Source: Bacillota bacterium (GTDB lineage: Bacteria; Bacillota; Dethiobacteria; DTU022). Taken from it: a stretch of 59,395 nucleotides of DNA. The number at the start of each line of letters is the position of its first letter. Positions within the stretch are counted from its first letter, which is position 1. Under the pieces are notes generated by a model. The model was not told where the DNA came from. It worked only from the letters and a program-made list of their open reading frames with translations, and did not search any database. The translations under genes and the position numbers were made by a program. The stretch is from NCBI GenBank assembly GCA_012840855.1, contig DUVX01000033.1, positions 1-59,395 of the forward strand, given 5' to 3'. Positions 24,706 to 56,756 of this stretch are shown one piece after another.

Positions 24706-25155
24706 ATGCGTGCAGTGGTACAGCGTGTGGAGAGGGCCTCGGTGGCGGTAGGCGCGGAAATCATCGGAAAGATCGGCCCCGGCCTTGTTGTCTACCTGGG
24801 CGTGGGGCGGGACGATAGCGCCGCCGATTGCAGCTACCTGGCCAAAAAGATTGCAGGGCTGCGTATATTCGAGGATGAGAGCGGGCGGATGAACCTCTCT
24901 GTCAGGGAAAACGGGGGGAGCATCCTCTGCATCTCCCAGTTCACCCTCTACGGTGATTGCCGTAGAGGGCGCCGGCCCAGCTTCACCGCCGCCGCTTTGC
25001 CGGAGAAAGCGGCGGAACTTTACGAGGAATTCTGCACCCGCTTGAGTGAGGAGGGGCTCGCGATCGCCCGGGGACGCTTCGGGGCGATGATGCAGATAGA
25101 GCAGGTTAACGACGGGCCGGTGACGATCCTGCTGGATAGCGGCAAGAATTTCTAG
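24706..25155 (+). CDS. dtd: D-aminoacyl-tRNA deacylase
   Basis: A 149-aa homodimeric DTD that removes D-amino acids mischarged on tRNA. The N-terminus [13 protein letters not shown], the active-site [17 protein letters not shown] (Ser-Gln-Phe-Thr motif) and the [10 protein letters not shown] end are diagnostic (Gly-cisPro motif). Length is typical. The start follows GGGGGAGG. The next ORF begins 88 bases later. Confidence 0.95.
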
Positions 25156-25243: not shown

Positions 25244-28200
25244 TTGCAGTATCGGGCTCCCCGGGGTACCCGGGACCTTTTGCCGGGGGAGATTGAAAGA
25301 TGGCATTTTCTCGAGGAAACATTCAGGGGGCTCTGCGCACTCTACGGCTACGGTGAGGTGCGCACGCCTTTTTTCGAGCAGACCGATCTTTTTGCTCGCA
25401 GTGTGGGTGAAGAGAGCGATATCGTTTCCAAGGAGATGTATACGTTTAAGGATCGCAGCGGCCGCAGCCTGACCCTGCGGCCTGAGGGTACGGCGGCGGT
25501 GGCTCGCGCTTACCTGGAAAATAATTTAAAAGACCGGCCGCAGCCGATCAAACTCTACTATGTGGGGCCCATGTTCCGCTATGATCGTCCGCAGGCAGGG
25601 CGTTACCGCCAGTTTCACCAGGTGGGGCTGGAGCTTTTCGGTGCCGCCCATCCCGTTGCCGACGCCGAGATTATCGCTCTATCCATCAATTTTTTGAAGG
25701 CGCTGCATATTGACGATTTCAACCTGGAGCTGAACAGCGTGGGCTGTCCCCGTTGCCGTCCCGCTTACGGGGAAGAGCTGCGCGGCTTCCTGCGCTCGCT
25801 CAAAGAGGAGCTCTGCTCGGACTGCCGGCGCCGCTTCGAGGAGAACCCCTTGCGGGCGCTGGACTGCAAGGAGCCCCGCTGCCGCGAACTGGTCCGGCAG
25901 GCGCCGATGATGCCCCAGCGCCTTTGCGCGGAATGCCGGATCCATTTCGCGGAGCTGCAGCGGATTCTCGATGGCCTGAAGATTCCCTTTCTCCTCAACC
26001 CCCGTCTTGTCCGCGGCCTCGACTATTACAGCCGCACCGCTTTTGAATTTGTTCCCCGTGAGGACAGGGCCCTCGGTTCTTTAGGCGGCGGCGGGCGCTA
26101 CGATTACCTCGTTGAGTACTGCGGCGGACCGCCCGTTCCCGGGGTGGGGGTAGCTCTGGGTATAGAGCGTCTCCTCACCGCCGCCGGGGCGGCGGCGATA
26201 TCGCCCTTCTCTACGGCGGAGCCGCCGCTCTATATCGCTTCGGCTGGAGAGGGCCTCTCCCCGGAGACGCTGGCCCTTGCGGAAGGACTCCGCCGCCGTG
26301 GCATCCCCGTGGAGACTGAGCTGATGGAGCGCAGCCTGAAGGGGCAGATGAAATATGCCGGCCGGAAAGGTTTCCCGGCGGTGCTGCTCATCGGCTCGCG
26401 CGAGCTGGAGACAGGGACCGTGACCCTGCGCCGCATGGACAGCGGCGAGCAGGAGACGGTGCCCCGCGCCGGGCTGGCGGAGAGGCTGCAGCGGGAGGGG
26501 CTTCTCCCCCGGCGGCAGGAGGCGACAGCCGGCGGAACGGCAGAGGGAGCGGAACCGCCGGGTTGCGGGGAGCTGCGCGCCGGCGATGCCGGCAAAGAGC
26601 TGGCCCTGCGGGGCTGGGTGCAGCGCCGTCGCGATCATGGCGGGCTTCTCTTTGTCGATCTGCGCGACCGCACCGGGCTGGTTCAACTGGTCTTCAACAG
26701 TGAGGGCGACCGGGAGCTTTTTGCCCTGGCCGAAAGCCTGCGCAGCGAGTACGTCATCGCTGTGCGGGGTAAAGTGCTCCGCCGCGATCCCGACCAGCGC
26801 AACCCCGCCCTGAAGACGGGCGAGATCGAGATTCAGGTTGCGCATCTGGAGATCCTCAATCGCTCGAAGACGCCGCCCTTTTATATCGAAGACGGGCTCC
26901 ATGTGGACGAAAACCTACGCCTGCGCTATCGCTATCTCGATCTGCGCCGTCCCGAGAACTACCGCCGTCTGGCGCTACGCCACCGTGCGGTAAAGCTGAT
27001 CCGTGATTATCTCGACGGGTGCGGCTTCCTGGAAATCGAGACCCCGGCGCTGACGCGCAGCACCCCTGAGGGGGCGCGTGATTACCTGGTACCCAGCCGG
27101 AGTAGCCCCGGTTCCTTTTACGCCCTGCCGCAATCGCCGCAGCTTTTCAAGCAACTGCTCATGGTGGGCGGCGTGGAGCGCTATTTTCAGATCGCCCGTT
27201 GCTTTAGGGATGAAGATCTGCGCGCGGACCGGCAGCCCGAGTTCACCCAGATCGATATCGAGGCCTCCTTCATGGAGAGGGAGCGCCTGTTTGCGATCAT
27301 GGAGGGGATGATGGCTCTCCTTTACAGCGGGCTCCTCGGCTATGAGCTGCCTCGCCCCTTCCTTCGGTTGACTTACCGCGAGGCGATGGAGCGTTACGGC
27401 ACCGACAAACCCGATCTGCGCTTCGGGATGGAGCTGATAGATTGCAGCGAACCGGCCCGGGAAAGCGAATTCAAGGTTTTCCGGAGCGCTCTCGAGGCCG
27501 GCGGAGCGGTCAAAGCGCTGCGGGCCCCGGGGAAGGGCGGCTACAGCCGCCGGGAGCTCGATGAGCTTGTCGCCCTCGCCGTTGGCTGGGGAGCGGGGGG
27601 GCTAGCCTGGTTAATCCGCGAGGAGCAGGGCTGGCGCTCGCCCATCGCTAAATTTTTCAGCCCCGCCCTGCTGGAGAAGATCGGGGAGCTTGCCGGAGCC
27701 GTTCCCGGCGATCTGCTGCTTTTTGCCGCCGGTGATAGATCGCTCTGCAATGAAGTCCTGGGCCGGATGCGGCTGCACCTCGCTCCGGAGAGCCTGCCGG
27801 CGGAGCCGCATTTTCTCTGGGTCGTCGACTTTCCCCTCTTCGAGTACGATCCGCTGGAGAAAAGGCTGACTCCGGCGCACCATCCCTTCACGGCGCCGCG
27901 GGAGGAAGATCTGCCGCTTCTCGAGAGTGAGCCCCTGGCGGTGCGCTCGCAGGCCTACGACCTGGTGCTTAATGGGGTGGAGCTGGGCTCGGGGAGCAAC
28001 CGGATCCACCGCCGCGAGATCCAGTGGCGCATCTTCCGGGAGCTGGGGATCTCGGAGGATGAAGCGATGGAGAAATTTTCTTTTCTCCTGGAAGCACTGG
28101 AGTACGGGGCGCCTCCCCACGGGGGGATCGCCCTGGGCCTGGACCGCCTGGTGGCTCTCTTCACCGGAGACGAGTCGATCCGGCAGGTGATCGCCTTTCC

Positions 28201-28321
28201 GAAGACCGCCGCTGGAAGCTGCCTGCTCACGGGCGCACCGGCTGAGGTGGCGCCGCAGCAGCTGCAGGAGCTGGGCCTCAGCATTAAATCCGCCTTAAAA
28301 GACGGCGGCCCAGACCGCTGA
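25244..28321 (+). CDS. hisS-aspS: Fused histidyl-tRNA synthetase / aspartyl-tRNA synthetase
   Basis: One uninterrupted frame of 1025 codons. Residues 1 to about 422 are a complete class II HisRS: APRGTRDLLP, motif 2 in VGPMFRYDRPQAGRYRQFHQ, the histidine loop LVRGLDYYSRTAFEF, motif 3 in VGVALGIERLL, and a C-terminal anticodon-binding domain ending in SLKGQMKYAGRKG and VTLRRMDSGEQETV. A linker of about 18 residues (425-442) leads into a complete AspRS: OB-fold GWVQRRRDHGGLLFVDLRDRTG, QSPQLFKQLLM, CFRDEDLRADRQPEFTQID, GAD-type insert, and motif 3 GGIALGLDRLV. There is no stop and no in-frame ATG, GTG or TTG in the linker, so a fused product is predicted. The genes are normally separate neighbours. 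The TTG start at 25244 follows AAGGGTGAGG. His in RRRDHG suggests a nondiscriminating AspRS. Confidence 0.88.
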   Translation: MQYRAPRGTRDLLPGEIERWHFLEETFRGLCALYGYGEVRTPFFEQTDLFARSVGEESDIVSKEMYTFKDRSGRSLTLRPEGTAAVARAYLENNLKDRPQPIKLYYVGPMFRYDRPQAGRYRQFHQVGLELFGAAHPVADAEIIALSINFLKALHIDDFNLELNSVGCPRCRPAYGEELRGFLRSLKEELCSDCRRRFEENPLRALDCKEPRCRELVRQAPMMPQRLCAECRIHFAELQRILDGLKIPFLLNPRLVRGLDYYSRTAFEFVPREDRALGSLGGGGRYDYLVEYCGGPPVPGVGVALGIERLLTAAGAAAISPFSTAEPPLYIASAGEGLSPETLALAEGLRRRGIPVETELMERSLKGQMKYAGRKGFPAVLLIGSRELETGTVTLRRMDSGEQETVPRAGLAERLQREGLLPRRQEATAGGTAEGAEPPGCGELRAGDAGKELALRGWVQRRRDHGGLLFVDLRDRTGLVQLVFNSEGDRELFALAESLRSEYVIAVRGKVLRRDPDQRNPALKTGEIEIQVAHLEILNRSKTPPFYIEDGLHVDENLRLRYRYLDLRRPENYRRLALRHRAVKLIRDYLDGCGFLEIETPALTRSTPEGARDYLVPSRSSPGSFYALPQSPQLFKQLLMVGGVERYFQIARCFRDEDLRADRQPEFTQIDIEASFMERERLFAIMEGMMALLYSGLLGYELPRPFLRLTYREAMERYGTDKPDLRFGMELIDCSEPARESEFKVFRSALEAGGAVKALRAPGKGGYSRRELDELVALAVGWGAGGLAWLIREEQGWRSPIAKFFSPALLEKIGELAGAVPGDLLLFAAGDRSLCNEVLGRMRLHLAPESLPAEPHFLWVVDFPLFEYDPLEKRLTPAHHPFTAPREEDLPLLESEPLAVRSQAYDLVLNGVELGSGSNRIHRREIQWRIFRELGISEDEAMEKFSFLLEALEYGAPPHGGIALGLDRLVALFTGDESIRQVIAFPKTAAGSCLLTGAPAEVAPQQLQELGLSIKSALKDGGPDR

Positions 28322-28750: not shown

Positions 28751-28934
28751 AGGACCCTGCTGTGTTCGTGTCTACCGGTAAAGTTTTGAGCTAACACATG
28801 ATTCTCGGGAGCCTGGTCTTTAGCTGTGGCGTAGCAGCCTCCCTTGAGAGGACCTACAAAGCAGTTAAGAGGGCACCCACTTTTTGGGGGAACAGTTCAA
28901 AACCCAACGGTCCACGGCATAGCGGGGTTTTTTT
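28751..28934 (+). ncRNA. ssrS: 6S RNA (RNA polymerase-binding regulator)
   Basis: About 184 bases, the usual 6S length, sandwiched between a good promoter and a T run. The ends pair: CCCTGCTGTG with CATAGCGGGG gives a ten-pair closing stem (with G-U pairs) that runs straight into TTTTTTT. Sequence landmarks of 6S RNA are present: TGTGTTCGTG after the closing stem, TTTTGAGCTAACACA opposite the central bubble, and GGTCCACGGCAT on the 3' side. They parallel the TGTTCG, TGAGC and CGGCAT boxes of the E. coli molecule. 6S RNA mimics an open promoter and binds sigma-A holoenzyme, damping transcription in stationary phase. The downstream gene mgtE starts 23 bases after its end. Confidence 0.78.
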
Positions 28935-28956
28935 GGTTGGAAAGGAGGAGTTGCCC

Positions 28957-30282
28957 TTGCCCCTCTTGATAGACGAACTCTCCACCCGGATCAGACAGGG
29001 CCTTCAGGAAGGTGTTCATCCGGGAGATCTGCTCGAACTGCTCGATCAGCTCAGCGACGAAGAGAAAACAGAGATATTGAAGCTGCTCTCTGACGACGAA
29101 GTGACGGCGCTGATCCAGGAGATGGAGCGTTTTGAGCAGGTATCTCTTTTTCGCCTTCTTGATTACGGCCGGGCTCCCGCTGTTCTTAAAGCGATGGCTT
29201 CCGACGATGCCGTCGATTTGCTAGGCGAGCTGTCGCCGGAGGAGATCGCCGCTTTGCTGCCGCTGGTGGATGAGGAGGGCGCCAAGTTCAGCGGGCTGCT
29301 GAAGTATCCCGAGGAGAGCGCCGGGGGGATCATGACTACTGAGTATATCTCCCTGCCGGCCGATCTGCCCGTGGAAGAAGCGATTGCACGGCTGCGCGAG
29401 ATCGCGCCCCAGGCGGAGACGATCTACTATGTATTTGTCGTTGATCTGGAAAACCGGCTCATCGGCGTGCTCTCGCTACGTGACCTCATCGCCGCTCCCG
29501 ATGGCACCCCGCTTAAAGAGATCATGCGGCACAACGTGATCAGCGTCAATGCCGCGCTCGATCAGGAAGAAGTCGCCCGGGTGGTGGTGAAATACGATCT
29601 GCTTGCTCTGCCGGTGGTCGACGACAGCAACCGCCTTCTGGGAATTATCACTTTTGACGACATCATGGATGTTCTGGAGCAAGAGGCCACGGAGGATATC
29701 TACCGCCTCGCCGGGGCCGGCGAGGTCACCGGCGTGGAGCTCATGGAGGCTTCCGCCTACCAGGTCGCCTGGCATCGCACTCCCTGGCTACTGCTGAGCA
29801 TGCTCGGGGGGATCGCGGCCGGTTACATTATGAGCACCTTCGAAAGCACCCTGGAAGCGATCCTGGTGCTCGCTTTCTTTATCCCGGTGATTATGGATAT
29901 GGGGGGCAATGTGAGCACACAGTCCTCGACGATCTTTGTCCGGGGGATCGCCACCGGGGAGATCAAGGGAAACGGTATCTGGCGGTATCTTTTTCGTGAG
30001 ATACGGGTGGGGCTTTTGATGGGGGTTCTCTTCGGTCTGCTGGTGGCCGCAGCAGCGTTGCTCTGGCGGGGAAACCCCGTTTTGGGGCTCGTTGTCGGCA
30101 CCTCCATGATCGCCACCATCTCGCTCGCCACGATTATCGGCACGCTGGTCCCGCTATTTTTTCACAAGCTTAAAATAGATCCGGCGATAACCTCGGGGCC
30201 CCTGGTGACGACGATCAAGGATATCACCGGCCTGCTCATCTATTTCGGAATGGCTACTCTTTTTCTTGATTATCTTTGTTGA
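28957..30282 (+). CDS. mgtE: Magnesium transporter MgtE
   Basis: A 441-aa Mg2+ channel. The cytoplasmic N domain (about 1-125) has repeats such as LLELLDQLSDEEKTEIL and LLGELSPEEIAALLPL. Two CBS domains follow (MTTEYISLPADLPVEEAI and MRHNVISVNAALDQEEV), then five membrane helices with PVIMDMGGNVSTQSST, the conserved pore segment. The CBS domains close the channel when Mg2+ is high. A longer reading frame upstream runs through the 6S RNA and is not real. A TTG at 28957 is 8 bases from AAAGGAGG (28941-28948); another TTG at 28951 is too close. No M-box riboswitch is seen. Confidence 0.92.
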   Translation: MPLLIDELSTRIRQGLQEGVHPGDLLELLDQLSDEEKTEILKLLSDDEVTALIQEMERFEQVSLFRLLDYGRAPAVLKAMASDDAVDLLGELSPEEIAALLPLVDEEGAKFSGLLKYPEESAGGIMTTEYISLPADLPVEEAIARLREIAPQAETIYYVFVVDLENRLIGVLSLRDLIAAPDGTPLKEIMRHNVISVNAALDQEEVARVVVKYDLLALPVVDDSNRLLGIITFDDIMDVLEQEATEDIYRLAGAGEVTGVELMEASAYQVAWHRTPWLLLSMLGGIAAGYIMSTFESTLEAILVLAFFIPVIMDMGGNVSTQSSTIFVRGIATGEIKGNGIWRYLFREIRVGLLMGVLFGLLVAAAALLWRGNPVLGLVVGTSMIATISLATIIGTLVPLFFHKLKIDPAITSGPLVTTIKDITGLLIYFGMATLFLDYLC

Positions 30283-56487: not shown

Positions 56488-56756
56488 AAATAAGCTTCAA
56501 CGGCGATGAACGGGCCAGTAAGCAGCGGGTAGTCTCTTCAGAGAGCCGGCGACGGTGTAAAACCGGTGGGGCATCGCTGCCGAATATCCCCCGGGAGCCC
56601 CTGTGCCAAATCCAAAAAGGGAGAGTAGACACAGGCGGTGCCCCCGTTAAAGGCCCAGCAATGAGTGGCCGCCGACCTGTATCCTGGGGCGGCTAGCAGG
56701 GTGGTACCGCGGGAGAAGATCTCGTCCCTAGTAGAAGTGGGGCGGGATTTTTTATT
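56488..56756 (+). promoter_or_regulatory. T-box riboswitch leader of ileS
   Basis: A T-box leader that reads the charging state of tRNA-Ile. The conserved T-box AGGGTGGTACCGCGG is at 56698-56712; its TGGT pairs with the free tRNA 3' end and belongs to the antiterminator. The terminator that follows pairs TCTCGTCCC (about 56720-56728) with GGGGCGGGA (56739-56747), then TTTTTT. An ATC at 56586-56588 in the stem I area (GAATATCCC) is the probable specifier codon for isoleucine. Uncharged tRNA-Ile would favour antitermination and ileS expression. Confidence 0.9.

Follow-up and report, generated by a model that had tools for sequence, protein, structure and literature searches.

A single gene in the window (the whole 59,395-nucleotide stretch of Bacillota DNA that was analysed) joins two aminoacyl-tRNA synthetases of different specificity. 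The explanation I consider very probably correct is that it encodes a genuine bifunctional HisRS-AspRS on one 115 kDa chain, which most likely arose once and whose AspRS start signal then decayed. An earlier note on this DNA, made from the letters alone, had proposed a real fusion of this kind, and the proposal gains from its recurrence throughout a family of genomes, from the single clade that these genomes share on an independent tree, from linker dN below dS in most of the species pairs compared and from the fate of the old AspRS start.

The note's description of the two enzymes in one open reading frame of 1025 codons holds. The fused hisS-aspS gene runs from 25244 to 28321 on the forward strand, opens with TTG, closes with TGA and has no internal stop. 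Its product, with a predicted mass of 115,025, begins with a complete HisRS, which some 25 linker residues connect to an equally complete AspRS of bacterial type. Both enzymes match their NCBIfam models nearly from end to end: hisS TIGR00442 scores 499 bits (cut-off 286.75; profile positions 2-405 of 406) and bacterial aspS TIGR00459 scores 720 bits (cut-off 373.85; positions 7-582 of 586). A Pfam search found no added domain beyond those of HisRS and AspRS, and no model for a joined HisRS-AspRS protein stood among the best 25 of 41 NCBIfam matches. The features of the gene and its neighbours are these:

24706..25155, + strand: dtd-like gene, conserved upstream neighbour, from the ORF list and the family loci
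25265..26173, + strand: HisRS class II catalytic core, residues 8-310 (Pfam tRNA-synt_His, PF13393)
26234..26494, + strand: HisRS anticodon-binding domain, residues 331-417 (Pfam HGTP_anticodon, PF03129)
26489..26563, + strand: linker, about residues 416-440, with no in-frame ATG, GTG or TTG; pLDDT below 50 at residues 422-437 of the model
26564..28318, + strand: bacterial-type AspRS, from its CGEL motif (NCBIfam TIGR00459)
26606..26857, + strand: AspRS OB-fold anticodon-binding domain, residues 455-538 (Pfam)
26906..28207, + strand: AspRS class II catalytic core, tRNA-synt_2, residues 555-988 (Pfam)
27479..27760, + strand: GAD insertion domain, residues 746-839, typical of bacterial AspRS (Pfam PF02938)
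28751..28932, + strand: 6S RNA, conserved downstream neighbour (96.8 bits)

The HisRS motifs TLRPE, GPMFRYDRPQ and RGLDYY, which I read as its class II motifs together with its RGLDYY signature, are invariant across 12 fused homologues, and the AspRS catalytic core of the window protein carries QSPQLFKQ, FRDEDLRADRQPEFTQ and GGIALGLDR. From the sequence I infer both charging activities. The CGEL at which the AspRS begins lies some 7-8 codons downstream of the position of the start codon in most split relatives. An open reading frame at 28798-30282 overlaps the 6S RNA, so that gene probably starts later. No T-box was found at gathering score in front of the fused gene; a T-box leader does occur elsewhere in the window, at 56497-56732 (111.9 bits).

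Could the joined frame be an artefact, in which an error of assembly or sequencing removed the boundary codons, stop and start, from a pair of ordinary genes? The window's genome is a draft of 177 contigs (92% complete), and most relatives that were read do have hisS and aspS as separate neighbours. The earlier note had called separate neighbours the normal state in Bacillota, and so they are: among the best 80 of 574 named relative loci, 71 are split and 9 fused, the latter all family members already within the family count. It is too much to expect, though, that the same error should recur throughout a family. Of the 43 family genomes covered (G000-G042), 36 allow the junction to be judged, and 32 of these, spread over 11 of the 18 family genera, have the joined architecture that the note had suggested looking for in related genomes. 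Thirty-one of these junctions were read by script; that of G042 rests on a match spanning 377-1016 without a stop. Seven family genomes (G002, G009, G011, G019, G020, G024 and G038) fall outside the junction count on account of contig ends or genes not found. The nine fused named records belong to differing isolate-name series (T1Sed10 and CSSed, for instance, hint at sediment as the source), and the linkers vary in length yet stay in frame, with dN below dS as described below. With so many genomes sharing the joined frame, neither chance nor sequencing error explains that of the window, and an artefact here is scarcely credible.

The four unfused genomes among the 36 are of two kinds. G013 and G015 have separate, adjoining hisS and aspS. 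In G017 and G027 the HisRS closes at a stop and no AspRS was found downstream in the piece read. Within the class and outside the family (54 genomes), all 43 junctions that were read are split, and in the remaining 11 genomes the AspRS frame does not exceed 625 codons. A search of the phylum (398 genomes) provided 39 further loci among the matches listed, 38 of them split and one lacking HisRS in its piece. Several candidates for independent fusions were set aside: G061 and G082 looked fused from their open frames (1064 and 1067), yet in each a stop and an ATG separate hisS from aspS, and G437, G212, G428, G418, G439 and G409 are all split. One genome from another class of the phylum, G388, does contain a true HisRS-AspRS single frame of 1075 aa (L202:701-3928, equivalent to G388:C4:86200-89427). 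Its congener G097 has split hisS and aspS, and G388 itself has a GTG, with a weak Shine-Dalgarno sequence, at the site of the old AspRS start. Since this is one genome, with a split congener and a GTG still at the old start, it is only a possible second origin, apparently independent.

Have the fused genes kept the signals that once started AspRS? In-frame starts were counted in codons -14 to -3 before the CG of the CGEL motif, in 31 fused and 47 split genes. Every split gene has an ATG, GTG or TTG in this region (47/47), compared with 15 of the 31 fused genes; ATG itself is found in 44/47 split genes and 4/31 fused. Requiring in addition 4 nt or more of match to Shine-Dalgarno leaves 38/47 and 5/31; at 5 nt or more, 30/47 and 0/31 remain. 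All nine split genes that lack a Shine-Dalgarno match belong to family f5, where the comparison carries less weight. In the fused genes, the signal for starting AspRS internally has decayed.

This result bears on a second alternative, in which one unbroken frame nevertheless yields two proteins in the cell, by internal initiation or by cutting of the linker. Some fused genes may indeed permit internal initiation, given the 15 that retain an in-frame ATG, GTG or TTG near the old site and the five among them with a 4-nt Shine-Dalgarno match. Both linkers that were modelled have pLDDT below 50, and the window's linker contains a Shine-Dalgarno-like AGGAGG at 26517-26522. No in-frame ATG, GTG or TTG (the three starts searched for) follows that AGGAGG until residue 458, and it is either a relic or chance. 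The earlier note had stated that the window offers no separate AspRS start from about residue 405 up to the OB-fold; this holds for codons 406-457, which lie between a GTG at 405 and another at 458, the latter within the first OB strand of AspRS. What weighs against two proteins is the complete disappearance of starts with the longer Shine-Dalgarno match, together with the 16 of 31 fused genes, the window's included, that lack any ATG, GTG or TTG in codons -14 to -3. The starts that remain in the other fused genes differ in position. Two separate products are thus quite improbable, and a single bifunctional chain is the better account.

Measured from R.M to CG the linker spans 44-66 residues over 31 fused rows, the frame being kept throughout, and its codons evolve faster than those of the domains. 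In eight of nine species pairs dN is below dS in the linker, by a small margin in G034/G041 (0.063 vs 0.085); in the ninth pair, G029/G031, dS is not computable.

How often did the fusion arise within the family? Where relatives have split genes, hisS ends a short way before AspRS, and the two share a frame in 16/47 cases and in 28/71 of the split loci among the best 80 named, so the loss of a stop can join them. Trees of HisRS and AspRS place the fused rows in two groups, the clade of the window and a larger clade B, with poor basal support. Read by themselves, these trees pointed to two independent fusions within the family, a reading since displaced by a tree of rpoB and rpoC from 29 genomes, which is independent of the synthetase sequences. 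There, one clade with support 100/100 comprises the 14 fused rows, three rows without a bacterial AspRS (G017, G019 and G027) and two rows without a judgeable junction (G011 and G020). The split genomes G013 and G015 fall outside it, and the test rejects a grouping of G013 with g1 and g12 (p = 2e-4). A clade of fused rows alone is also rejected (p = 2e-6), because G017, G019 and G027 nest inside. Since the fused lineages form a clade with full support from which the two split family members are absent, a single fusion is the simplest history, and the history that best fits the sequences is one fusion followed by one loss.

Separate fusions in the window's clade and in clade B, in place of one fusion and a later loss, would account for the two groups on the HisRS and AspRS trees and for the unfused G017 and G027 standing beside the window's clade. 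They would also account for the differences between linkers. An AEVxLP-like pattern is found in 24 of 25 clade B linkers (e.g. L010 and L119), in 21 of them exactly 17 residues before the CG of AspRS, and the mean in shuffled linkers is 1.8; because the pattern was picked after viewing the linkers, shuffling gives no more than a rough control. The six linkers on the window's side contain one loose match (G003), elsewhere in the linker, and the element in its fixed place is a trait of clade B. That a fused frame seems to have arisen separately in G388 lends the idea some plausibility. Nevertheless, a single fused clade is not rejected even on HisRS and AspRS (AU p = 0.095), the rpoB and rpoC clade and the rejected placement of G013 speak for one origin, and so does the synteny of G027, from which AspRS is missing in place. 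Repeated fusion within the family is accordingly unlikely.

The case for loss comes from those same genomes (loci L038 in G017, L100 in G019, L039 and L090 in G027). A bacterial AspRS over cut-off was not found in G017, G019 or G027 (G017 being only 66% complete). G019 and G027 have instead an archaeal-type aspartate-tRNA(Asn) ligase over cut-off, located in G027 away from the HisRS locus. Stand-alone HisRS is present in G017 and G027; no HisRS over cut-off was found in G019. At the G027 locus, relA and dtd lie upstream, the HisRS stop is at L039 2043 and 6S RNA begins at 2200, with no AspRS between the two, while the other family loci tested have the order his-asp-6S. The 6S RNA is found at 6/7 family loci tested, the exception being the short piece from G017. 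It appears that in one branch of the family the fusion has been undone again.

No second HisRS or AspRS over cut-off was found in the window's genome at its 92% completeness; a weaker second synthetase match there proved to be LysRS. AsnRS (asnS) over cut-off was not found in G000-G004, G014 and G025, nor in G011, G013, G015, G017, G020, G045, G046, G047 and G049. It is present over cut-off in 14 of 30 genomes, namely the 11 fused clade B genomes that were searched plus G019, G027 and G073. G011 groups with clade B in trees and yet has no AsnRS over cut-off. GatB exceeds its cut-off in 28 of the 30 genomes, the exceptions being G003 and G017, and so in six of the seven genomes G000-G004, G014 and G025, the presence of GatCAB being judged by gatB alone. 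Two gatB matches over cut-off occur in 10 of the 11 fused clade B genomes searched (G005 has one), and the four genomes of the window's genus have one at most.

A histidine in place of leucine in the RRRD-x-G loop of the OB-fold can mark a non-discriminating AspRS. The window protein has RRRDHGG in this loop, including the RRRDHG of the P. aeruginosa Asp/Asn enzyme, where the Asp enzyme of T. thermophilus has RRRDLG. The histidine is found in 31/31 fused and 42/47 split relatives, and for that reason says little about the fusion itself. Because AsnRS was not found in the window's genome, the AspRS half is probably non-discriminating in the window's genus, feeding both Asp and Asn codons; the replacement of AsnRS by such an AspRS together with GatCAB is presented as established in PMC4206432. 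The fusion would then tie the essential His enzyme to an AspRS that probably serves two sets of codons. Most likely the protein is an obligate bifunctional enzyme, with two homodimerising synthetases on each chain.

I propose that the fusion arose in a common ancestor of most family members: the stop separating two same-frame neighbours would have disappeared, and a linker, variable in length, would have grown between them. As the separate start site of AspRS decayed, a change visible in the genes, AspRS would have come to be made within the fusion. HisRS and AspRS are both homodimers, so the assembly is itself a structural question. Each half would fold as the normal enzyme does and dimerise with its own kind, so that two chains might form a linked assembly of roughly 230 kDa, containing a HisRS dimer and an AspRS dimer. 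On a plain reading, the gain from joining would be one-to-one supply and shared regulation.

AlphaFold2 gives the window protein (36 rows) two folded halves, with mean pLDDT 78 and pTM 0.51. The pTM of the clade B model is 0.49, and neither model places the halves relative to each other. Among solved structures the halves best match chains of bacterial AspRS and HisRS, with a target-normalised TM of about 0.7 though at an rmsd of 7-13 A, and stretches of low confidence also occur within both enzymes of the window model. Neither model showed a fold for its linker or for the AEVxLP-like element, which lies in a region of the clade B protein (417-443) with pLDDT below 50. The modelling thus supports the two folds, not their arrangement.

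A bolder scheme may be considered, one I hold only tentatively and think rather doubtful. Dimers interlocked by their linkers, in a closed or filament-like form, would make an obligate multi-synthetase assembly that couples the supply of His, Asp and (through GatCAB) Asn. The AEVxLP-like element of clade B would serve as a docking strand, and the AspRS half could be lost only after an archaeal-type AspRS had been gained, such as is seen in G019 and G027.

The starting materials of the fusion are commonplace: adjacent hisS and aspS in Bacillota are the same genes, in the same order and often in the same frame (28 of the 71 split loci among the best 80 named), and differ in having a stop and a start between them. 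Fusions of synthetase genes are called common in PMC13215547, which treats MetRS with appended domains. The earlier note knew of no HisRS-AspRS fusion, nor was a report recognised in literature searches of open PMC papers, mostly by title and the start of the abstract. As far as could be found, then, this joining appears undescribed, although its kind is already known from animal EPRS.

Other known chains resemble it in part. In the AspRS-GatC fusion (NCBIfam PRK12820), a bacterial AspRS is likewise joined to another protein of tRNA charging, the partner being an amidotransferase subunit and not a second synthetase. The window protein is not of this type, for it scores 625 bits where the cut-off is 1379 and its match stops at profile position 616 of 723. 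The double TyrRS of parasites has two synthetase units per chain, both of them TyrRS (PMC11580382, PMC9437257). LysX is another bacterial synthetase fusion, its partner being a lipid-modifying domain (PMC9437257).

The joining of synthetases with different specificities is best known from EPRS, and it is EPRS that the window fusion most resembles, with two specificities on one chain. To judge by its sequence, the bacterial protein likewise combines two full-length synthetases, unlike in specificity, in a single frame that a lineage has conserved. EPRS pairs enzymes of class I and class II, whereas the window fusion joins two of class II and has no added Pfam domain. EPRS is an animal protein with a linker of WHEP repeats and resides in a multi-synthetase complex; the window fusion is bacterial and its linker is short. 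The histories run parallel, for EPRS is described as having fused once and persisted in its lineage, except that in C. elegans its two halves are once more separate (PMC4394549). A fusion found across a bacterial family, and apparently undone in one branch, offers a compact natural experiment on what brings such fusions about and what keeps them.
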